A model generated the notes under the pieces. The model was not told the DNA's origin. It worked only from the letters and a program-made list of their open reading frames with translations, and did no database searches. Shown here in pieces: positions 38,747-49,628 of a DNA stretch of 64,000 bases. Positions within the stretch are counted from its first letter, which is position 1, and each line of letters starts with the position of its first letter. The translations under genes and the position numbers were made by a program. The stretch spans positions 133,811-197,810 of the forward strand of contig DS999405.1 in assembly GCA_000158155.1 (NCBI GenBank), read 5' to 3'. This DNA comes from a gamma proteobacterium NOR5-3 (GTDB lineage: Bacteria; Pseudomonadota; Gammaproteobacteria; Pseudomonadales; Halieaceae).

Positions 38747-39145
38747 TTATGCCAATCGTTTATATACGCTAGTGACCAATTCCTCGGCAATGAGCATGCC
38801 TGCGACCACGGTGATGAATGCCAGGACGCCATGCATAGCCCCAGCGAAGTAAATGCTGTCACCCAGTACGCGGTCTACGGTACCGAGCATGACGAACTTC
38901 GACCCAAATAAAATGAACCAGGCGCTGAAGTAGCGCAGGAAACTCCACAGGCCGCCACTGCGCTTGTCAAACCATTTGCCAACGCGGTGCTCCAAAGCCA
39001 GGGTGGCTTGTAGCAGCAACTGAAGAAGCACTGCGGCGATGAGTGAGGTGCTGAAGTTGTCTACGGATACCCTGGACCAGAACTGGGCAAAGAGATTGAT
39101 GACGATGAGGTCTGCAAGCAATGCAATGAGGTAGCGGGTTAGCAA
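38747..39145 (-). CDS. Small integral membrane protein, unknown function
   Basis: No named family recognised. The 132-aa product has three or four hydrophobic segments: YLIALLADLIVINLFAQFW, LIAAVLLQLLLQATLAL, a region around AWFILFGSKFVMLG, and GVLAFITVVAGMLIAEEL. The start is uncertain: the first usual codon is a TTG at 39145 without a ribosome binding site. The frame is open upstream to 39216 and contains AGAAGG 7-8 bp before an ATC that would give an N-terminal extension IKTHRHKVAATAEVPTTRQR. The true start may be that rare codon. It lies between the sulfotransferase and the YjiH-type gene on the same strand. Confidence 0.65.
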   Translation of the reverse strand: MLTRYLIALLADLIVINLFAQFWSRVSVDNFSTSLIAAVLLQLLLQATLALEHRVGKWFDKRSGGLWSFLRYFSAWFILFGSKFVMLGTVDRVLGDSIYFAGAMHGVLAFITVVAGMLIAEELVTSVYKRLA

Positions 39146-39282: not shown

Positions 39283-40683
39283 CTATCCCATAAACAGATT
39301 TGCGGCTAACACAGCTATGGGAAAACCCACCAGCGTGCGCATGACAAAGATGCTCAGCAAGGTAAGCACATTAACTTTAAGGGCGCTGCGTAGCAGCAGC
39401 GAGCCTACTTCTGACAGGTAAATGAGCTGGGTTAGCGAGACGGCGGCAATCACAAAGCGCGTGAGCTCACTTTCCACGCCCTGCCCGATGGCGGCCGGCA
39501 GGAACATGTCGAGAAATCCCACCATGAACGTGGGTGCTGCGGCACGTGCGTCCGGTAAACCAAACCAGTCCAGCACGGGGATGAGCGGCGCAGACAGGAT
39601 TTGCATGACGGGAGTGAACTCCGCCACTGCCAGGCCTAAGGTGCCGATAAGAACCACCAGCGGCACCAGGCCCATCCAGATGTCCATGACATGCTGCGCA
39701 GATGTCGCCAGATATTGCTGTGCATTGGGGCTGGACGCTGCGCGCCTGCGTGCTGCTGACGTCGCCCGCTGGAGCAGGCTCGATCTCTCAGGGACTTCAC
39801 CGGCCCCGTCCGGTCCGACGGTGTCGTTGGGGAGCGGGCGGATGCCCCGCAGCGGCGGTAAGCGCGGTAGCAATATGGCGCAGCACAAACCGATGCTCAC
39901 GATGGTCGCGTACACCGAGAAGAAGTGCTCGCGCAAACCAATAAATTCAATCACGAACAGGCAAAACGGCAGACTGGTCACAGAAAAGTTGGTGGCGATG
40001 ACGATGGCTTCCCGGCGTGAGTAGTGGCCGTTCTCGTATTGACTGATGGTGATCAGTACGCCCACGGCCGCGGCCGCCAGCCAACTGGCCAGGGCATCTA
40101 CAGCGGCGCGTCCGGGGAGAGTAAACAGGCGACGAAAGACCGGCTGCAGGAGCGTTCCTACAAACTCCATCAAACCGTAGTCCGTGAGCATAGGGAGTAA
40201 AAACGACGCGCACAGAAATATGGTCACTATGGTTCCGCCGAGGTCAAACAGAGCCACAGCGCCGGTGTATTCGTTCCAGATGAATTCGGGCCCAGCTTTG
40301 AACACAATGAGCCAGGCGCAGAGGGTTCCCAGTAGTCGTAATGCGAGCCAGAACAGTGGGACGCTGAATACCCGGGTGACGCCGTGCTCGCTGTAGCGTT
40401 GCTGTAGCCCGGGGTTCAGGGCGCCTGCGATGCTTAGCAGCGTGGAGAGTGTGACGATGCTCAGCAGTAGCGCGGGCATGGCATCGCCGATGAAGGCCCT
40501 CAGTGCATCCGCGGCGACGCCCAGCAGTATGGTCCAGGCGCCATCGGCATAAATAGGGCACAGAAAAACCATCGCACCAATGAGCGACGGAATAAGAAAG
40601 CGGCCCAGCGGCGCGTGCCGGGCACCATGGGCTGTGGCCTCATTCACACCAGCAACGGCTCCCGATGGCGCGCAATCAGGCAT
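39283..40683 (-). CDS. YjiH-type membrane protein with two nucleoside-recognition (Gate) domains
   Basis: Multi-span inner-membrane protein, 466 aa, probably a transporter. About ten hydrophobic segments can be counted. Two Gate-like blocks are visible, one around residues 140-245 (LGGTIVTIFLCASFLLPMLT) and one in the last 130 residues (APTFMVGFLDMFLPAAIGQG), joined by a hydrophilic linker near 285-330. In E. coli the related halves are encoded by separate genes yjiH and yjiG directly beside iadA (from memory). Here it is the last gene of a run with cyanophycinase and AcuI, and an iadA-like gene is in the same locus. Transport of aspartyl-arginine, arginine or a related product is therefore a reasonable but untested guess. 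Confidence 0.85.
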   Translation of the reverse strand: MPDCAPSGAVAGVNEATAHGARHAPLGRFLIPSLIGAMVFLCPIYADGAWTILLGVAADALRAFIGDAMPALLLSIVTLSTLLSIAGALNPGLQQRYSEHGVTRVFSVPLFWLALRLLGTLCAWLIVFKAGPEFIWNEYTGAVALFDLGGTIVTIFLCASFLLPMLTDYGLMEFVGTLLQPVFRRLFTLPGRAAVDALASWLAAAAVGVLITISQYENGHYSRREAIVIATNFSVTSLPFCLFVIEFIGLREHFFSVYATIVSIGLCCAILLPRLPPLRGIRPLPNDTVGPDGAGEVPERSSLLQRATSAARRRAASSPNAQQYLATSAQHVMDIWMGLVPLVVLIGTLGLAVAEFTPVMQILSAPLIPVLDWFGLPDARAAAPTFMVGFLDMFLPAAIGQGVESELTRFVIAAVSLTQLIYLSEVGSLLLRSALKVNVLTLLSIFVMRTLVGFPIAVLAANLFMG

Positions 40684-40698
40684 AACCTGTGCGGCCTG

Positions 40699-41688
40699 CT
40701 ACCGTGAAAGATCAACGATCGCTCTTCCGCGGATTTTACCGGCGAGGATGTCGGGTGCGCGAGACAGCACCTCACTGAACGGCAGGTCAAAGGACAGCGC
40801 CTCAAGCTTGCCCATATCCAGTTCTTCGGCAAGACGACGCCAGGCAACAAGTCGTCGGGCCATAGGGGCCTGCACGGAATCAACGCCCTGGAGACGCACG
40901 TTCCGCAGAATAAACGGCATGACCGTTGCGGGCAGGTCTGCACCCTGGGCAAGGCCGCAGGCAGTCACCACACCATCGTAGCGTGTCTGGGCGATGGCAT
41001 TGGCCAGGGTGTGACTCCCGACGCAATCAATGACGCCTGCCCACAGCTCCTTTTGCAACGGCTTGCCGCGCTCCGATAGCGCGGCGCGATCAATAGTGTC
41101 TGCCGCGCCCAGAGAGCTGAGGAATTCCGCTTCACTCATACGACCAGTAGATGCTACGACCTCATAACCCAGTCCGGCGAGCAGGCTGATGGCCACCGAG
41201 CCCACTCCGCCGGCGGCGCCGGTGACAAGGATGGGCCCGTCTTTGGGAGAAGGACCGCTGCTCTGCAGAGCCATAACGCTCAGCATGGCCGTGTAACCGG
41301 CGGTGCCAATGGCCATGGCCTGCGCGTTGGAAATTGACTCAGGCAGCTTGACCAGCAGATCACCGCTCACTCGAGCTCGCTGTGCGTAGCCTCCGTGCAG
41401 ATACTCCGACGCGCCGTAGCCATTCATCACGACCCGGTCACCCACCTCGAAATCGGCGTGTTGGGAATCGATGACAGTGCCTGAATAGTCAATGCCCAGT
41501 ATGAGAGGGTGACGCTGGGCGATGGGTGCTGTACCGGTTATGGCCAGACCGTCCTTGAAGTTCAGCGTGGAGTAGTCCACCGCCACCGTAACGTCTCCGG
41601 CGTCCAGGTCGTCGAGTCTGAATGTTTCGTAATTGCAGCTCAGAGATTCGTCTTTTCGGGCGACAAGTGCGTTGAAGCTGTCTGACAT
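40699..41688 (-). CDS. acuI: AcuI/YhdH-type acrylyl-CoA reductase family protein
   Basis: NADPH-dependent medium-chain reductase, 329 aa. Characterised relatives reduce acrylyl-CoA to propionyl-CoA, which protects cells during DMSP or 3-hydroxypropionate use. I place the start at ATG 41688, since AAGGA lies 8 bp upstream; an in-frame TTG at 41694 is less likely. Family features: YSTLNFKDGLAITG near residue 40, HPLILGIDYSGTV near 62, LVTGAAGGVGSVA near 155 for the cofactor, and the AcuI-type SLGAADTIDR. No zinc-ligand cysteines are seen. The gene starts 9 bp after the cyanophycinase stop and ends 15 bp before the YjiH-type gene. Its activity would repeat the third step of Pcs. Confidence 0.88.
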   Translation of the reverse strand: MSDSFNALVARKDESLSCNYETFRLDDLDAGDVTVAVDYSTLNFKDGLAITGTAPIAQRHPLILGIDYSGTVIDSQHADFEVGDRVVMNGYGASEYLHGGYAQRARVSGDLLVKLPESISNAQAMAIGTAGYTAMLSVMALQSSGPSPKDGPILVTGAAGGVGSVAISLLAGLGYEVVASTGRMSEAEFLSSLGAADTIDRAALSERGKPLQKELWAGVIDCVGSHTLANAIAQTRYDGVVTACGLAQGADLPATVMPFILRNVRLQGVDSVQAPMARRLVAWRRLAEELDMGKLEALSFDLPFSEVLSRAPDILAGKIRGRAIVDLSR

Positions 41689-41697
41689 GTTCAATCC

Positions 41698-43935
41698 TTA
41701 ATGAATGGCTAGCGGGTTTCCCAGGGTTTGCAGCCATTGGGGACTGTTAAACACCTGCTTTGATTCGCCCAGCGCAAGTTCATAATCCCGGGCCAGGTCC
41801 TGAAGCGCATCGTGCAAAAGGGCCGTTGCCGTTGCGGAGCGTTCGGCAGTGGCTCCCGCCAGATCATCCAGGCTCACCCGCTGTCCGGGCTCGAGCATAT
41901 ACAGTCTCACTCCCGCCGGATCCGGAACGCCTGGCGCCAGCCGCACGCGATGCAGGTCGAGCTCAACCACCACCACGCCATTGCTACCGATGGCTTCTAT
42001 TTCACGTTCGTTGCCATGGATGATCATGCCGGCGCCTTCGCACAGGCCAAATCCAAAGCGCTGCTGCTGGGCGGCGCAAGCCATAAGAAGGCGACCCAGG
42101 CGATGTCGTCTCAGGAAGTTCTGATCGATCAGGCCCAGTCGTGTAAGACCGATGCCGCGTTCTATGACAACCCCGGAGAAGCTGGCGTCTTCGGAGCTGC
42201 CGTAGCGCCAGGCGGCTATGCTGTCGCCTTCGGCGATCATGCGGGCACCCAGAGCGGTGGCAGATGCGGCAACGGCAATCAAGGGCGTGCCCCGTTCGTA
42301 GGCAGTCACAATACTGTGCAGCACCGGTGTCGCCTCTGCGCAGTGCAGCAGTGCTTCTGTTACGCGTCGCTGGTCGCCGCCGGTAAACAACAGGCTCCCC
42401 ATGCGATCGATGGTTTTGAGCAGTGCGCGATCGCGACTCGCCCGTTCAATGTTGTGCAGCGCTATGGGCAGGAGCTCGGCTTGCACGTTTTCGCTGGCCA
42501 GCCAGTCAAGGTAGCGTTCGGCCATCGCGGTGGGCTCGCCAGATGCAGTTGCCAGTACGCCCACGGGTTCGCGAAGCTCCTTCAGTAACGTTTTTCGCGC
42601 TGTCTCGGGCCAGTTGATCGGTGTGCTACCGAGCATCACCAGGCGTGCTTCTGGCGCGGGATCCGGGCGCAGCACCTGTGTGCTCTCATTTAACGGGCAG
42701 GCATCAAGCGCTGCGCAGTGAATGTCCAGGCCAAAATTCAGCGCGGTGTAGCGGATCTCTCCGCTGCGCACCGCGCGAAGGGCACGCGAACGGCGAGGGC
42801 GTCGCTGCACCTGCAGGGTCACCTGATTGCCATAGGCGGCGTCAAAGGCGCTGGCGCTGTCTTTGTTGTAAAAAGCCGGGTCGCTCTCCACCAGCCTCAA
42901 CATCAGGTCATGGAGGCCATAGCTGGCGAAGGCGTTTCTGCGCACCGGCGCCGGAGAGCGATAGGAGGCGCGCCCTACGCGGCTGCGACGCTTGTCTGCT
43001 GCGGGTATGGGTTTACCCCGCTGCAAATCGATGGCGTCGCCATCGTCCAAAAATGATACCCGGGCGTTGCGTACGGCAAACTCGCCGTCGTCGAAGGTCG
43101 CTTTGCGCAGATCTATAAAGAGAATACCGGTTTCGCCGACCACTTCGCCGCGGGAGCCTTGAACAATAAGCGCACTGTTCTCATCAATGCCGAAGGCCAG
43201 TGATTCCCCGGACAGCTCGGCGGCTTTGATGAGACGGCCTACGCGCCCACGTTGTAAAAAATGTTGGTCGACCATGCCCCAGGTGAAGAACCCGAGGCCC
43301 TCGCCGAGTCGGAAGGCGTCAAAATCCTCCCTGGCGCTTGCTGAATCATCGACACCGCGGCTGATGGCATGCAGCGATGTGCCGCCGAGGATCATCGGTC
43401 CCGACATGATGGCGGCGCCAGCAGAGCTGCCAGCGACGAGTCCGCCGGCCAGATAAAGCTCACGAATGGCGTTAAGGGCCGGCGTTTCTATGCCGTCCTG
43501 AATCAGCGTGCCGACGATCCGTGACTGGTCGCCGCCGGTAAAAAACACGCTTCCAAAGGCCTGGAGCCGTTCGATTAACTTCGGGTCATGGGCGGATTCC
43601 AGGCGGTTCTCAAAAAAGATAGGAACCAGCTCGGCATAAAAGCCGTGGGATCGAAATTCATCGACCGTCTCTGTACCAACTTCTTGCGGAAATCCTGACG
43701 CCATGGAGCAGATCGCAATGCGCCCGTTGCAGCGCTCATACAAGGCCTTGAACAGGGGTGTGTTGTCTGCTTCAAAACGACCGCCGATGAGCGCCAGAGA
43801 CCCCAGAGCCTGGCGGTCTTTTCGGTGCGCGGATTGAATGAGGTCGGGCGTCAAGGCACTTACCGGGCTGCAAAGGTCAGATGTGAGCGAATTAGTCGTC
43901 CCATTATCACTAAAGTTAGTGGATTTAGCGAACAT
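41698..43935 (-). CDS. Tandem two-domain cyanophycinase (S51 family), second domain degenerate
   Basis: Serine exopeptidase of the cyanophycinase family, which releases beta-Asp-Arg dipeptides from cyanophycin. The product is 745 aa, more than twice the intracellular family norm (about 270), and holds two copies. Domain 1 (about 45-300) has GGDQ at 134-137, the nucleophile S171 in GSSAGAA, DQHF at 223-226 with R229, R231 and R234, and E252: all expected catalytic and pocket residues. Domain 2 (about 430-690) keeps GGDQ at 519-522, S558 (but SAT not SAG), the three arginines (610, 612, 615) and E633, but the catalytic His is N606. It lacks a signal peptide. It is divergent from cphA and leads the run with acuI and yjiH. 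The ATG at 43935 may not be the true start. Confidence 0.88.
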   Translation of the reverse strand: MFAKSTNFSDNGTTNSLTSDLCSPVSALTPDLIQSAHRKDRQALGSLALIGGRFEADNTPLFKALYERCNGRIAICSMASGFPQEVGTETVDEFRSHGFYAELVPIFFENRLESAHDPKLIERLQAFGSVFFTGGDQSRIVGTLIQDGIETPALNAIRELYLAGGLVAGSSAGAAIMSGPMILGGTSLHAISRGVDDSASAREDFDAFRLGEGLGFFTWGMVDQHFLQRGRVGRLIKAAELSGESLAFGIDENSALIVQGSRGEVVGETGILFIDLRKATFDDGEFAVRNARVSFLDDGDAIDLQRGKPIPAADKRRSRVGRASYRSPAPVRRNAFASYGLHDLMLRLVESDPAFYNKDSASAFDAAYGNQVTLQVQRRPRRSRALRAVRSGEIRYTALNFGLDIHCAALDACPLNESTQVLRPDPAPEARLVMLGSTPINWPETARKTLLKELREPVGVLATASGEPTAMAERYLDWLASENVQAELLPIALHNIERASRDRALLKTIDRMGSLLFTGGDQRRVTEALLHCAEATPVLHSIVTAYERGTPLIAVAASATALGARMIAEGDSIAAWRYGSSEDASFSGVVIERGIGLTRLGLIDQNFLRRHRLGRLLMACAAQQQRFGFGLCEGAGMIIHGNEREIEAIGSNGVVVVELDLHRVRLAPGVPDPAGVRLYMLEPGQRVSLDDLAGATAERSATATALLHDALQDLARDYELALGESKQVFNSPQWLQTLGNPLAIH
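43908..43921. promoter_or_regulatory. Palindrome at the divergent cyanophycinase/cphA junction
   Basis: CACTAA-AG-TTAGTG is a perfect 6-bp inverted repeat with 2-bp spacing. It lies 14-27 bp inside the annotated start of the cyanophycinase gene and 83-96 bp upstream of the cphA ATG. On the minus strand a GATAAT (43903-43908) abuts it and resembles a -10 box. It could be an operator for the divergent genes, in which case the cyanophycinase would start further downstream than annotated. Confidence 0.35.
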
Positions 43936-44003
43936 CCATGGCTTTCAAGCGACCAATTCTGCGGTTAGAGTATGCGATTCCCAGAAGAATTCGGAGTTTC
44001 CCC

Positions 44004-46790
44004 ATGCAGTTCCTCGATACCAGTGTGTACCGCGGCCCCAATGTGTACGCGCTTTTCCCCGTTATTCGGCACCGGGTGGATCTTGGGGTGCTCGAGGAGT
44101 GGCCCACAGCGCGGCTTGGTAAGGACTTTGTGGAAGCGCTTGTTGCAGCGCTCCCGGGCCTTGCAGACCATGGGTGCTCCTATCGGGAACCTGGCGGACT
44201 GGTTCGCCGCATGCTCGAGGATGAGGGGACGTGGCTGGGACATGTGCTGGAGCACGTGGTGCTTGAGTTGCAGGGTATTGCCGGCTACGAAGTCTCTTTT
44301 GGTAAGACGCGCTCTACGGATGAGACCGGCGTTTACGACATGGTCTTTGAGTTTGAAGAAGAGTTTGCGGGTATTGAGGCGGGTAAGCTGGGACTGGATT
44401 TGTTGCATTCACTGCTGCCGGCGGATCTACGGCCCTCCGATGGCCCTGAAGACTTTGATTTTGCTCAGGAGCGCGATCAGTTTATCCGTGCCTGTCAGTC
44501 GAGGTCCCTGGGGCCCAGTACCCATTCGCTGGTTAAGGAAGCGGAAGCCCGGGGAGTACCCTGGATTCGATTGAATGAGCACAGCCTGATTCAATTGGGG
44601 CACGGTCGCTATCAGCAGCGTCTACAGGCGACCATTACCAGCGCTACGCCGCATATTGCCGTGGAACTGGCCTCTGAGAAAGACGAGACGAACCGCATTC
44701 TGGGTGACCTTGGTCTACCGGTGCCCCGGCAGGCGCTTGTCTATCGTTTGCGCCGGGCTATTGCGGCCGCCGAGCGCATTGGCTACCCGGTGGTGATAAA
44801 GCCCCTCAATGCCAATCACGGGCGCGGGGTGACCACGGATATACAAAATGAAGAACAGGTCGAAGCGGCCTACGATAAAGCTAAAGAGCATAGCGACGGC
44901 GTCATTGTGGAAACTTACCTCGCCGGTCTTGACCATCGCCTGCTCGTCGTTGGGGGCCACCTGGTCGCTGCCGCTAAGCGCGTGCCTGCCCACGTAGTGG
45001 GCGACGGACACTCCACCGTGGAGGAGTTGGTCGCCAAGGTAAACGAAGATCCTCGCAGAGGTGTGGGGCACGAAAAAGTGCTCACGCGGATTTCGCTCGA
45101 TGCAGCGGCCGAACGCATGTTGCAGCAGTCCGGTATGACCGTCGAGAGTGTTGCCGGCGAAGGTGAGATCGTTTACCTGCAGCCCACGGCGAATTTGAGC
45201 ACCGGCGGAACGTCTGTAGACGTTACCGATGTGATTCATCCGGACAATAAGAGCATGGCAGAGCGCGCCATTCTTGCCCTGGGTCTGGATGTGGGCGGGG
45301 TGGACTTTATCACCACGGACATCACCCGCTCCTACGGTGAAGTTGGCGGAGGCATCTGTGAGTGCAATGCGGCGCCGGGCTTTCGCATGCACGTCGCGCC
45401 ATCCGAAGGCTTGCCCCGTAATGTGGCGGGCCCGGTTATCGACATGCTGTTCCCCGAAGGCAGCCCTTCCTCCATTCCCATCGCAGCAATTACCGGTACC
45501 AACGGCAAAACCACTACTTCGCGCATGCTTGCGCATATTCTGAAAATGTCAGGATTGACCGTGGGTCAGACCAGTACCGATGGCGTTTATATCGATGGAA
45601 GGTTGACCGTAGCCGGGGATATGACAGGTCCCACGGCGGCGCAGATCGTGCTGCGTGATCCTTCGGTGAACGCGGCCGTCATGGAAACCGCCCGGGGAGG
45701 GATTCTGCGCAGTGGCCTTGGCTATCAGCGATCCAATGTTTCAGCCTGCCTGAATATTGCGGCTGACCACCTCGGGCTGAAAGGCGTGAATTCATTGGAA
45801 GATCTTGCCGAGGTGAAACGGGTGGTCGTGGAAGTTGCCCGGGATGCGGCGGTACTGAATGCGGATGACGTTCACTGTCTTCAGATGGCGGACCACTGCA
45901 CCGCCGAGAAGCTGTGCTACGTCACCATGAATCGCTCCCATCCGCTGGTTCGTGAACATATTAAAGCCGGTGGCACGGCGCTGGTGCTCGAGCAGGGAAT
46001 CAACGGCGGTATGATCACGCTCTATGACGAGCAGGGACACAATATTCCCTTGCTGTGGACTCACCTGATTCCAGCTACGTTGGAAGGCCGGGCCATGCAT
46101 AACGTGCAAAACGCCATGTTTGCTGCGGCGCTTGCGTATCACATGCATATTGACCTGGAAAACATCCGTCAGGGTCTGCGAACCTTCGATAGCACTTTCT
46201 TCCAGTCACCCGGTCGCTTGAACGTCTACGACAAGCACCCGTTCAAGGTGATCCTGGACTATGCACACAACCCTGCGGCGGTAAAAATGGTTTGCGATGT
46301 CGTCGATCGCTACGAGATTGGCGGTCGCAAAATTGTGGTGCTGACTATGCCCGGGGATCGCCGCGATGAAGATATTGTCGAGGTTGCCGGTATCGCTGCA
46401 GGTCACTTTGACCACTATATCTGTCGGCGCGATGACAATCTTCGCGGACGAGAGCCCTCAGAGGTTCCGGCTTTGCTCAAGCAGGGGCTCCTTGCAGGTG
46501 GCGTTCCCGAGGACCGTATACAGATCATTGAGCGCGAGGAAGAGGCGAATCAGGCAGCGCTGGATATGGCCCGGGGCGGTGACCTCTTGTTGATTCTCGC
46601 GGATCACGTTACCCGATCCTGGAAACAGATCATTTACTTTCAGCCGGGAGAAGATGTGGTGAGCGAGCAGAGCGAGCGTCCTGCCGTGGATATCCCCGAA
46701 GAGTTTATCGGCAGCTTCTCGTTTTCCGACGATCTTGAGCTGATTCGCGATGAGCGCGGTGTGCGTATTGCCCGGGAGAGCGACGACTAG
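44004..46790 (+). CDS. cphA: Cyanophycin synthetase (CphA1 type)
   Basis: Makes cyanophycin by adding Asp to the backbone and Arg to each side chain, using ATP. The product is 928 aa from ATG 44004, which gives the family N-terminus MQFLDTSVYRGPNVYALFPV and has CGGAG 9 bp upstream; the frame is open a further 66 bp. The N-terminal domain (to about 200) includes the HVLEHVVLELQ segment and ends around IQLGHGRYQQRLQAT. The ATP-grasp domain (about 210-470) has PVVIKPLNANHGRGVTTD and ICECNAAPGFRMH. The Mur-ligase-like domain starts with AITGTNGKTTTSRM near 494 and ends near 880. All three domains look intact. It is first in a run with the CphA-like ligase and the iadA-like gene. Confidence 0.95.
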   Translation: MQFLDTSVYRGPNVYALFPVIRHRVDLGVLEEWPTARLGKDFVEALVAALPGLADHGCSYREPGGLVRRMLEDEGTWLGHVLEHVVLELQGIAGYEVSFGKTRSTDETGVYDMVFEFEEEFAGIEAGKLGLDLLHSLLPADLRPSDGPEDFDFAQERDQFIRACQSRSLGPSTHSLVKEAEARGVPWIRLNEHSLIQLGHGRYQQRLQATITSATPHIAVELASEKDETNRILGDLGLPVPRQALVYRLRRAIAAAERIGYPVVIKPLNANHGRGVTTDIQNEEQVEAAYDKAKEHSDGVIVETYLAGLDHRLLVVGGHLVAAAKRVPAHVVGDGHSTVEELVAKVNEDPRRGVGHEKVLTRISLDAAAERMLQQSGMTVESVAGEGEIVYLQPTANLSTGGTSVDVTDVIHPDNKSMAERAILALGLDVGGVDFITTDITRSYGEVGGGICECNAAPGFRMHVAPSEGLPRNVAGPVIDMLFPEGSPSSIPIAAITGTNGKTTTSRMLAHILKMSGLTVGQTSTDGVYIDGRLTVAGDMTGPTAAQIVLRDPSVNAAVMETARGGILRSGLGYQRSNVSACLNIAADHLGLKGVNSLEDLAEVKRVVVEVARDAAVLNADDVHCLQMADHCTAEKLCYVTMNRSHPLVREHIKAGGTALVLEQGINGGMITLYDEQGHNIPLLWTHLIPATLEGRAMHNVQNAMFAAALAYHMHIDLENIRQGLRTFDSTFFQSPGRLNVYDKHPFKVILDYAHNPAAVKMVCDVVDRYEIGGRKIVVLTMPGDRRDEDIVEVAGIAAGHFDHYICRRDDNLRGREPSEVPALLKQGLLAGGVPEDRIQIIEREEEANQAALDMARGGDLLLILADHVTRSWKQIIYFQPGEDVVSEQSERPAVDIPEEFIGSFSFSDDLELIRDERGVRIARESDD

Positions 46791-46797
46791 AATCACT

Positions 46798-48498
46798 ATG
46801 CGCTTGCTCGATTCCCGGCGCCTCACGGGCGCGAATTTCTTACTTGAAGGTCCTGGCGCGGTGCTGGATGTTTCGGTGGCCGACGCTGACCGGGAGCTCC
46901 TGGTTGCTGCGTGGAAGCGCCATGCACTGCGATTGCTTGCCGACATGGACTGGGAGGGTCAGCAGCTGGTGGCGCGACCTTTTTCAGGTGGCGTGAGCCT
47001 CGCGTTGACCGCGCCCCGTGACGGCCTTTACACCGCAACAGAGCTCAACGAAACCGCGTACGAGGCGGCGCGGGATTTCATCGAGGGAGGACAACGGCAT
47101 CTCCTGGTGCGCGCAGCCCGCGCTCTGCGGGGGGAGTACCGCGACGAAGAAAGGCCCAGGCTTCAGCGCCTGCTCGCCGCGGCAAAAGAACAGGCTACCC
47201 CCGTGCTTGTGGACGAAGAGTTTCTGACCCTGGGGACCGGGCGTCACAGTCAGACCTGGGATTTGTTCGAGCTGCCGCACCCTGATGACGTGTCCTGGCG
47301 ACGTCTAAAAGCCGTGCCTACGGCGCTCATCACGGGAACCAATGGCAAAACCACCACCGTGCGCCTGCTCGCTTCCATCGCGCGAGCCGCGGGTCGCGTT
47401 GCGGGTGTCAGCTCCACCGACTGGCTGGCTATGGGCGATGAGTTATTGCATCGCGATGACTATGCCGGTCCCGGCGGTGCGCGCATTGTTCTGAGAGACC
47501 AACGCTGCGAGTTGGCGTTGCTGGAGACGGCCCGCGGGGGAATGCTGCGGCGGGGGCTTGCGGTGGAGCGAGCCGATGTCGCTGTGATTACCAATATTGC
47601 AGCAGACCATCTGGGTGACTTTGGGGTAGAGACCGTGGAAGACCTTGCCGATGTGAAATGGTCGGTAAGCGCAGCGCTGGATAAAAAATCGTGCCTGGTT
47701 CTGAATGCCGAGGATCCCCTATTGATGCGCCGGGCGCCCGGTTCGCCGGCTCCGCTGTGTCTGTTTTCCCTGTCGCCGACGGCGCCGGCGTTTAAGGCAC
47801 ATCTGGCGCGGGGAGGCCGGGGGTTTACCGTGCGGCGGGGGCGGCTTGAGCGCATTCATGCGGGTAAGGTGGAGGGTTTTCTGTCGGTTAAAAAAATGCC
47901 ACTGAGCTACGACGGTGTGGCCAGGCATAACATCGCCAATGCGCTGGCCGCCGCTGCGGTCGCTGATGCTTTAGGCATTGAGCTATCGGTGATCGCCAAG
48001 GGTCTGTGTGCGCTGGGCAATGAAGATAATCCCGGGCGAGCGAATCTGTACACCGTCGGTGGTGCAACCTTTCTTGTGGACTTTGCGCATAATCCCGCGG
48101 GGCTTGAAGCGCTTATGCCGATGATCGAAGGCTTGCCTGCAAAGCGCAGAGCTTTGATTACCGGGCAGGCAGGTGATCGGGGTGATGAGGACATTCGCGC
48201 CTTCGCCGATGCTTCTTCGTCGATACACTTTGATCGCATCTGGCTCAAACGTATGGATGGCCATGCCCGGGGACGGGCTGAGGGCGAGGTTGCGGCTTTA
48301 ATGCGCGATGCCTTTATAGCCCAGGGCCATGCGGCCAAAAGTATCAGCTTGAGCAAGACGGAGCTTGACGCAACACGAGCAGCTTTACGCTGGGTAAAAC
48401 CCGGGGATCTTGTGGTGTTACTGTCCCATGAAAAACGCGACAAGACCCGGGAGTTTCTGGAAGCCCGGGTTGCCAAAGGAGTGACAGGATGTATCTGA
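46798..48498 (+). CDS. CphA-like Mur ligase family protein lacking the ATP-grasp domain
   Basis: ATP-dependent ligase-like protein, 566 aa from ATG 46798, 7 bp after cphA. The N-terminus MRLLDSRRLTGANFLLEGPG is reminiscent of the CphA N-domain, and TLGTGRHSQTWDL near 155 resembles the QLGHGRYQQRLQA segment that closes this domain in CphA. The Mur-type domain follows at once: GTNGKTTTVRLLAS near 180, LLETARGGMLRRGL, ITNIAADHLGDFG and FAHNPAGLEALM. In the CphA of this locus the same P-loop lies near residue 494, so about 310 residues, the size of the ATP-grasp domain, are absent. It might ligate one amino acid (for example arginine) to an acceptor, or assist CphA. Function is not established. 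Confidence 0.85.
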   Translation: MRLLDSRRLTGANFLLEGPGAVLDVSVADADRELLVAAWKRHALRLLADMDWEGQQLVARPFSGGVSLALTAPRDGLYTATELNETAYEAARDFIEGGQRHLLVRAARALRGEYRDEERPRLQRLLAAAKEQATPVLVDEEFLTLGTGRHSQTWDLFELPHPDDVSWRRLKAVPTALITGTNGKTTTVRLLASIARAAGRVAGVSSTDWLAMGDELLHRDDYAGPGGARIVLRDQRCELALLETARGGMLRRGLAVERADVAVITNIAADHLGDFGVETVEDLADVKWSVSAALDKKSCLVLNAEDPLLMRRAPGSPAPLCLFSLSPTAPAFKAHLARGGRGFTVRRGRLERIHAGKVEGFLSVKKMPLSYDGVARHNIANALAAAAVADALGIELSVIAKGLCALGNEDNPGRANLYTVGGATFLVDFAHNPAGLEALMPMIEGLPAKRRALITGQAGDRGDEDIRAFADASSSIHFDRIWLKRMDGHARGRAEGEVAALMRDAFIAQGHAAKSISLSKTELDATRAALRWVKPGDLVVLLSHEKRDKTREFLEARVAKGVTGCI

Positions 48499-49628
48499 TC
48501 AGTGGCGCGCAATGCTTCGATCCATCGCCGCGGGGACTGCTTGATGTACTGGTTGCCGGTGGCCAGGTTATTGCTATGGCTGAGCCCGGAACCCTGAGCG
48601 TTGACGCAGAGCGCGTTGACGCCACAGGAATGCTGTTACTGCCCGGTTTGGTGGATGCACTGACCCACCCTTGCGGCGGTGGCGGTGAAGGGGGCTTTGG
48701 CAATCGCACGGCAGAGATGGATGTGCAGACCTTTGTGCGCGCCGGCATCACCGCACCCGTGGGCGCCTTGGGAACAGACTCCATCGGTCGTTCTCTGGAC
48801 GTGTTGTACGGCAATGTTATGGGCATGCGAACCCAGGGACTCAATGCCTTTATGCTCAGCGGTGCTTATCGTGTGCCGGCGCCAAGCCTTACCGGCGATA
48901 TCGCCCGGGACATTTATCTTGTGGCGCCTGTTGTAGGCGTGGGCGAGGTGGCGATTGCGGATCACCGGGGAACGCAACCTACGGCGCAGGAACTGCGTCG
49001 TCTCGCTGCAGAAACGCAGCTTGGGGGTATTCTAGGCGGTGAAGGAGGCACGGTACTTGTCCATGTGGGGGCAGGCGATTCTCGGCTAGCATTGTTGCGT
49101 GAGGCGATCGACGGCAGTGACCTCTCACCCTCGGTGTTGTATCCCACACACGTGAATCGTTCCACTGCATTGCTGGATGAGGCCGCGGACTGGGCCCTGC
49201 GCGGAGGTTTTGTTGATATTACGGTATCGACCACGAAGGAGCTTATCGCTGCAGGCGACATTACTGCTGAGCAGGCCTTGCGTCGCTTACTGGAGGCCGG
49301 TGCTCCGCCAGAAAAAATTACCATGTCGTCGGACGCAGGTGGGTCTCTGCCGGTCTACGTCGATGGAGAGCTCGTGGGCCTTACTGCGGCGTCCCCGTCT
49401 TCACTCCCCGATTTGCTTATGACGGTATTGGCTGAGCATCCGGATCTTTTCCCCCTGGCGCTGGCCGCGATGACCCGTAACCCCGCATCGGCGTTGCGAC
49501 TCAACGCGGCCGGAGAGATTCGTGAAGGAGGTCGAGCGGATTTGCTGCTTCTGGACCCGGCAACCGGCGTCGATTCCCTGATGTGCGGTGGTGATTGGTT
49601 GTTGCGCGGTGGCGAGTGTTTGATTTGA
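48489..49628 (+). CDS. IadA-like isoaspartyl dipeptidase with altered metal ligands
   Basis: Amidohydrolase-fold protein, 379 aa, related to isoaspartyl dipeptidase, which splits beta-Asp-X dipeptides. In a cyanophycin locus the natural substrate would be beta-Asp-Arg. Aligned by eye to E. coli IadA, the pocket residues are kept: E67 (GGGGEGG), Y127, R160, R224 and S286. Metal-site residues H60, H192, H221 and D282 are kept too. Two metal ligands differ: the first His of HxH is L58 (sequence LTH), and the carboxylated Lys position is E153 (VGEVAIADHR). The site may hold one metal or use Glu as bridge. The ATG overlaps the preceding gene by 10 bp, and GGAG precedes it, so the pair is coupled. 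Confidence 0.87.
   Translation: MYLISGAQCFDPSPRGLLDVLVAGGQVIAMAEPGTLSVDAERVDATGMLLLPGLVDALTHPCGGGGEGGFGNRTAEMDVQTFVRAGITAPVGALGTDSIGRSLDVLYGNVMGMRTQGLNAFMLSGAYRVPAPSLTGDIARDIYLVAPVVGVGEVAIADHRGTQPTAQELRRLAAETQLGGILGGEGGTVLVHVGAGDSRLALLREAIDGSDLSPSVLYPTHVNRSTALLDEAADWALRGGFVDITVSTTKELIAAGDITAEQALRRLLEAGAPPEKITMSSDAGGSLPVYVDGELVGLTAASPSSLPDLLMTVLAEHPDLFPLALAAMTRNPASALRLNAAGEIREGGRADLLLLDPATGVDSLMCGGDWLLRGGECLI

Follow-up and report, generated by a model that had tools for sequence, protein, structure and literature searches.

Cyanophycin is a well-studied nitrogen-storage polymer of bacteria and a candidate bioplastic. In extracts of two papers on its synthetase CphA1, catalysis in the M domain is assigned to K499, E558, R731 and H748 of TeCphA1 (PMC9427784) and to D585/H586 of SuCphA1, and HxxEH is given as the protease motif of the N domain (PMC9262961). 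The related CphA2 is described as joining dipeptides in its G domain, with the P-loop and lid of its M domain lost (PMC9427784). Gene clusters that combine cphA and cphB with iadA or iaaA have already been published (PMC10206079), as have tandem cphA copies of other bacteria (PMC10687191), and the extract of PMC10206079 makes no mention of an extra ligase beside cphA. Here, such a ligase is described from a 64,000-nucleotide stretch, referred to as the window, of contig DS999405.1 (positions 133,811 to 197,810) of the gamma proteobacterium NOR5-3. Its gene follows that of a CphA1-type synthetase in a cyanophycin locus, and its product resembles CphA without the ATP-grasp (G) domain. The locus belongs to a widespread four-part operon type, composed of a dipeptidase (IadA or IaaA), a cyanophycinase, CphA1 and the G-less CphA-like ligase. 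On balance, the favoured reading is that the ligase works on chains made by CphA1, where it aminoacylates carboxylates of the side chains or of the chain end and so completes, replaces or caps the arginine (Arg) decoration. Among the literature titles and abstracts listed as matches, a set outside which most subscription papers lie, no G-less CphA ligase was found; within the titles and abstracts searched, the enzyme is undescribed.

The synthetase of the window is a full N-G-M enzyme with the N-domain HxxEH site, an ATP-grasp G domain and an M domain. It aligns nearly end to end with 7lgm (phmmer, 1030.7 bits), and its C..HxxEH motif aligns with that of SuCphA1. The ligase next to it begins with an N-like part and a stub of the G-domain start (about residues 1-170), followed by a Mur-type M domain that is complete (about 172-560), the inner borders being approximate. 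As the original prediction had proposed, it lacks an ATP-grasp domain: a Pfam scan returned no ATP-grasp family, and in an alignment of 85 ligase rows (83 distinct, two contigs having been entered twice) the regions N, G-start, ATP-grasp, Mcore and Mlid of CphA are covered at 0.63, 0.76, 0.03, 0.97 and 0.99, respectively, where ATP-grasp coverage is measured over CphA 216-480. An AlphaFold (AF2) model built from an alignment of 42 sequences (predicted local distance difference test, pLDDT, 92.5) superposes on SuCphA1 (7lgq) with 551 residues aligned in the range 1-560, a Z of 36.7 and a root-mean-square deviation of 3.3 Å, in agreement with Foldseek (TMq 0.84). The closest solved structures are 7lgq, 7lgj, 7lg5, 7txv and 7wae. 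Since the model superposes nearly whole, it appears that removal of G has left the N and M parts arranged as in CphA1. The ligase thus shares the CphA1 fold except for G, and its M domain displays the P-loop and the motifs ExARGG, DHLG, PGR and D(Y/F)AHN. The N-domain HxxEH motif, present in 68/68 linked CphA rows (66 distinct), is found in 0/85 ligase rows. The idea that the ligase supplies primers to a CphA without HxxEH was ruled out by its presence in all 68 linked rows. Comparison of the window with the congeneric locus L036 (L numbers denote individual loci) indicates purifying selection on the ligase, with a ratio of nonsynonymous to synonymous substitution rates (dN/dS) of 0.067.

The equivalents of TeCphA1 K499, E558, R731 and H748 and of SuCphA1 D585/H586 are retained in 85/85 ligase rows. 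The position of the P-loop Thr is occupied by Thr in 48 and by Ser in 37 of these rows, and that of the second Mg-binding Thr by Thr in 80 and Ser in five. This full set of M-domain residues argues for catalysis, and the ligase is presumably active. It also speaks against an explanation that we consider improbable, in which the ligase is a non-catalytic partner that enters a mixed oligomer with CphA1 and regulates the synthetase or anchors the polymer; the C half of the cyanophycinase in the same locus, moreover, shows how a dead copy looks. Such a partner would be compatible with the superposition on CphA1 over most of the length and with the absence of G, which could allow it to fill sites without chain extension. 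Two further positions separate the ligases from CphA. Y753 is Tyr in 81/81 CphA-type rows, whereas 84/85 ligases carry Phe and only L071 carries Tyr; R787, the second Arg of GDRR, is Arg in 81/81 CphA-type rows and in 0/85 ligases. These CphA-type rows comprise the 68 linked and 13 others, which include the G-less L129 and omit L137, five short CphA' proteins and the pairs L139-L142. Four further ligases from the pairs L139-L142 have Arg at R787 in 0/4 and Phe at 753 in 3/4 cases (Tyr in L139), and their four CphA partners conform to the CphA pattern at both positions.

An additional difference lies in a loop of ligase and CphA that aligns with the DNPR motif of MurE, whose residues contact the incoming amino acid according to an extract of PMC3829189. 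Counted back from RGR with gaps ignored, a procedure that missed 1/68 linked CphA, position -3 is Asp in 67/67 readable linked CphA vs 23/85 ligases, and position -2 is Tyr in 70/85 ligases. In ten further CphA-type proteins, Asp at -3 occurs in 0/10 and Tyr at -2 in 1/10, and the loss of the loop Asp was accordingly rejected as proof of a new acceptor; the differences at this loop are only a hint. The same evidence bears on the possible, though rather unlikely, explanation that the ligase adds Arg itself, either back-filling bare aspartate (Asp) where G runs ahead or boosting Arg-adding capacity. The retained catalytic residues would then catalyse the reaction carried out by the CphA1 M domain, the ligase does work beside a full CphA1, and the acceptor loop varies among other CphA too. 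What counts against it is the loss of R787 in 85/85 ligases and the replacement of Y753 by Phe in 84/85, at positions fixed in every CphA-type row, together with the scarcity of the loop Asp and the prevalence of Tyr at -2 relative to linked CphA. These sequence differences suggest an amino acid other than Arg for the ligase.

Like CphA2, the ligase is derived from CphA and has lost one of two ligase sites. It is nevertheless the mirror image of CphA2, which keeps G and loses the P-loop and lid of M, whereas the ligase loses G and keeps M. The dipeptide re-ligation envisaged in the original prediction is not borne out, the domain set of the ligase being the opposite of that of CphA2, an enzyme that joins in G and has no M P-loop or lid (PMC9427784, in extract). 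Re-joining of beta-Asp-Arg dipeptides by a CphA2-like enzyme would be in keeping with a cyanophycinase and a dipeptidase in the same locus, and is considered the least probable of all explanations. Other reduced CphA forms differ from the ligase as well. In the tandem CphA'/CphA pairs of L131, L132, L135, L136 and L138, parts are divided between the partners: the five short CphA' examined keep HxxEH and ATP-grasp (coverage 0.92) but have no M P-loop or lid (Mlid coverage 0.13), the reverse of the ligase, and the long partners lack HxxEH (5/5). A second G-less CphA is encoded on a Legionella adelaidensis plasmid (L129, 5515-7383; ATP-grasp coverage 0.05), with a cyanophycinase and IaaA as neighbours. 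It retains the Pfam match to the CphA N domain and HxxEH, groups with CphA in the tree, not with the ligase family, and is apparently independent of that family. In L137 (G286), a CphA-like protein with a very long branch has a degenerate M domain, in which TWADGP replaces DYAHNP.

The distribution of the ligase family was followed in a scan of named-species genomes, from which the best 80 of 529 loci were analyzed; this selection is biased toward close relatives, consists mostly of metagenome-assembled genomes (MAGs) and includes flanks of up to 9 kb, many loci being shorter. By record title, these loci fall into Gamma- and Alphaproteobacteria, Planctomycetota, Gemmatimonadota and Myxococcales, and further into Rhodothermales, Ardenticatenales, Neomarinimicrobiota and Hydrogenedens. 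Isolates with a ligase locus include Colwellia sp. 12G3, Shewanella hanedai, Sedimentitalea nanhaiensis and Roseovarius litorisediminis, and the locus is also present on the complete chromosome of bacterium Pla163. Linkage to cphA is tight: the N-G part of cphA stands immediately upstream of the ligase in 73/80 loci, and the remaining seven are six with a contig end inside cphA or the ligase, plus L071. Among the loci with at least 5.5 kb of upstream sequence, cphA lies directly upstream in 55/56 and cphB is present in 55/56, and the gap between cphA and ligase has a median of 9 nucleotides (n=76 pairs). An iadA or iaaA gene, the representative of the latter being Asparaginase_2 in Pfam, occurs near the ligase in 32/46 loci whose flanks extend to at least 5.5 kb on the upstream side and 2 kb on the downstream side. 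A search of 58 relatives, the genome of the window included, recovered the ligase in seven, each time adjoining a cphA, of which the contig of G027 holds only the end; no ligase was found in the congener draft G001 (89% complete). Among 369 genomes drawn evenly from the class, with a match threshold of E 1e-40 and at most three candidates scored per genome, CphA or the ligase is matched in 18, and eight of these, from five genera, have a full-length ligase, always next to CphA; a ligase without CphA was found in none of the 369 genomes at this threshold. Additionally, four plasmids carry a full-length match that is named only 'Mur ligase family protein' at NCBI, and in the three neighbourhoods examined the genes are cyanophycinase, cphA and ligase. 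The survey of relatives had been set beforehand as a test by the original prediction; the ligase proved neither randomly distributed nor unlinked (55/56 loci and 8/8 class genomes beside cphA), and an accessory component beyond the textbook CphA/CphB/IadA scheme is thereby upheld.

In a thinned, midpoint-rooted tree of 81 rows, which has four long end branches, 36 ligase rows are split from 45 CphA-type rows, two CphA' with degenerate M among them, with a branch support of 100/100; this branch rules out that the ligase arose recently by duplication of the adjacent cphA. The distance matrices of ligase and cphA are correlated (Mantel r 0.88, reached in 0/2000 permutations; n=67 rows). A relationship to other Mur ligases is evident in the common fold and ATP-site motifs. 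An enzyme of another pathway, for instance a peptidoglycan-like one, that merely shares the operon would agree with this Mur fold and with L071, where cphA is missing upstream. This explanation is nonetheless very improbable, given the linkage to cphA in 55/56 loci, the match to CphA1 structures over the whole length and the lack of any ligase without CphA in the class sample; the ligase also has no DNPR motif, in contrast to MurE.

MurE uses a side-chain carboxylate. Because the Mur-type site looks intact and G is missing, the ligase most likely acts on side-chain or chain-end carboxylates, and in the absence of a backbone-extending G domain it should be unable to extend the backbone. In the favoured reading, the G domain of CphA1 lays the Asp backbone and its M domain attaches Arg, and the ligase would depend on these chains, with its N part presumably holding the polymer and its M domain forming only M-type bonds on side-chain or chain-end carboxylates, so as to complete, replace or cap the Arg decoration. 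Cyanophycin is the likely substrate. Several observations weigh against this reading. The active-looking M domain of CphA1 makes a second one redundant unless the substrate differs. Ten of the 18 CphA-bearing class genomes have CphA only, so that the ligase is not essential to cyanophycin. The N part of the ligase is unmatched in Pfam by sequence, an earlier alignment scattered residues 1-170 across both N and G of CphA, and the assignment of this part rests on the 85-row alignment and the superposition. Ligase and cphA distances may be congruent simply because the two genes were transferred together, and L071 (8662-10806, an Ardenticatenales MAG) has a ligase of the family but no upstream cphA.

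A more specific, tentative version holds that the operon makes a cyanophycin with two ligands. CphA1 would supply Asp and part of the Arg, the ligase would add an amino acid other than Arg to Asp side chains or cap the polymer, promiscuous IadA or IaaA would clear the product of altered composition, and the dead half of the cyanophycinase found in the genus would grip the polymer. The sequences are still best read as pointing to altered side chains, in line with the different amino acid content raised in the original prediction, or to finishing of the polymer, and the conserved ligase suggests that such decoration or finishing takes place in many bacteria in a way not yet described. If true, two genes would determine polymer composition in many bacteria, the ligase would lend itself readily to tuning that composition, and the symmetry with CphA2, which only joins backbone, would be completed by an enzyme that only decorates.

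Table 1. Features of the cyanophycin locus and its neighbour, in window positions.
Feature	Position	Strand	Basis
132-aa protein	38747-39145		next to locus; retained in congener L036
Gate-domain (YjiH-like) membrane protein	39283..40683	-	PF07670, 57.1 bits
acuI-type acrylyl-CoA reductase	40699..41694	-	NF051456, 450.7 bits (cut-off 440)
Double cyanophycinase, 745 aa	41698..43935	-	TIGR02069 in two stretches, 252.7 bits (cut-off 126.6)
Divergent gap cyanophycinase/cphA, 68 bp	43936..44003	.	open reading frame positions; promoter scan
cphA, CphA1-type cyanophycin synthetase, 928 aa	44004..46790	+	TIGR02068, 1126.9 bits (cut-off 850)
G-less CphA-like ligase, 566 aa	46798..48498	+	Pfam Mur_ligase_M and _C only; alignment; AlphaFold model
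IadA-like isoaspartyl dipeptidase, 379 aa	48489..49628	+	TIGR01975, 304 bits (below cut-off 331.25)

All six open reading frames were confirmed at the positions predicted originally, and the two facing gene runs with their 68-bp junction stand (Table 1; aa, amino acids; bp, base pairs). The length of cphA is counted from a CphA-type start in a frame open from 43938, and that of the ligase from the start at 46798 in a frame open from 46750. With 7 bp between the cphA stop and the ligase start and an overlap of 10 bp between ligase and iadA, the three genes look like a single operon. A promoter scan of the divergent junction yielded no sigma-70 consensus and no promoter-like site, and scans of the 132-aa protein against Pfam and NCBIfam gave no match.

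The cyanophycinase was correctly predicted to be double, as seen in its two TIGR02069 stretches; the two halves are, however, not both catalytic. The N half, which matches the CphB (S51) structures 7uqv and 3en0, carries GSSAGA and DQHF with the Ser, His and Glu in place, and catalytic Ser and His are found in the N half of 4/4 doubles and likewise in 61/61 single rows. In the C half of 4/4 doubles, Ser is changed to Ala or Gly and His to Asn; on its own, the C half of the window protein scores 105 bits to TIGR02069, below the cut-off of 126.6. The fused tandem with such a C half sets the protein apart from CphB as represented by 3en0, 7uqv and 7uqw. An Asp, a Gln, a Glu and three Arg, which are invariant or nearly so in the 61 single rows, are kept in the C half of 4/4 doubles, and their roles are presumed from structure work on CphB. 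As the C half without catalytic residues keeps the pocket, it may serve as a module that binds or holds the polymer. Purifying selection acts on each half (dN/dS 0.045-0.074, C half 0.07), these values being rough since dS is close to saturation; a model of the double protein made without an alignment reached a pLDDT of 33.8 and was not used. The double form is restricted to 4/65 cphB rows (window, L036, L037 and L046), and in the class sample two cyanophycinase matches are listed for the genome of the window alone, so the form is only lineage-specific. In L046 (2695-6073), the double cyanophycinase has the same divergent arrangement, and a GCS2-type ligase is encoded next to it.

The IadA-like protein (M38) gives 243 bits to LmIadA 8dqn, the other reference structure being EcIadA 1ybq, and differs in residue 58, where Leu replaces the first His of the HxH metal pair. 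The score stays below the curated TIGR01975 cut-off (Table 1), and the binuclear metal ligand set of IadA (HxH, Glu/Lys, His, His) is incomplete. Residues H60, E153, H192, H221 and D282 are kept, as are E67, T96 and R224; except for D282, their roles follow the EcIadA/LmIadA numbering in an extract of PMC10206079. In the same extract LmIadA, from a cyanophycin cluster, likewise has a Glu where the carboxylated Lys would be. Of the changed metal ligands that had been predicted, the change of His to Leu is real and the Glu is shared with a known enzyme. Leu at the first HxH position is found in 3/3 members of the genus (window, L036 and L037), and HxH is present in 26/26 readable linked IadA elsewhere (27 found, L079 unreadable); the changed ligand is specific to this genus. 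As the only full-length IadA match in a genome in which no IaaA was found, and being under purifying selection, the protein probably has activity, its metal site being changed. Dipeptide cleavage need not hinge on it, because the genome encodes six AstE/AspA-family proteins that could share this task. With these six proteins as queries, which makes for a weak test, no AstE/AspA-type (CphZ-like) dipeptidase was matched near the ligase in the 80 loci. Beside the ligase operon, iadA and iaaA are mutually exclusive: one of them accompanies it in 32/46 well-flanked loci, both in 0/46.

The proposal that three oddities form one modified cycle is supported in part, by the conserved ligase; the double cyanophycinase and the IadA change are lineage-specific. 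The acuI and yjiH genes, taken originally as parts of the system, lie outside the conserved gene set: acuI was found in 0/80 ligase loci and the Gate-domain protein in 1/80 (L103, about 3.5 kb from cphB). The label 'yjiH' is apt in so far as the protein has a Gate domain, but the curated cut-offs of the NCBIfam models matched are not reached. Both genes are retained in the congener L036, and the Gate-domain protein is a possible dipeptide transporter.

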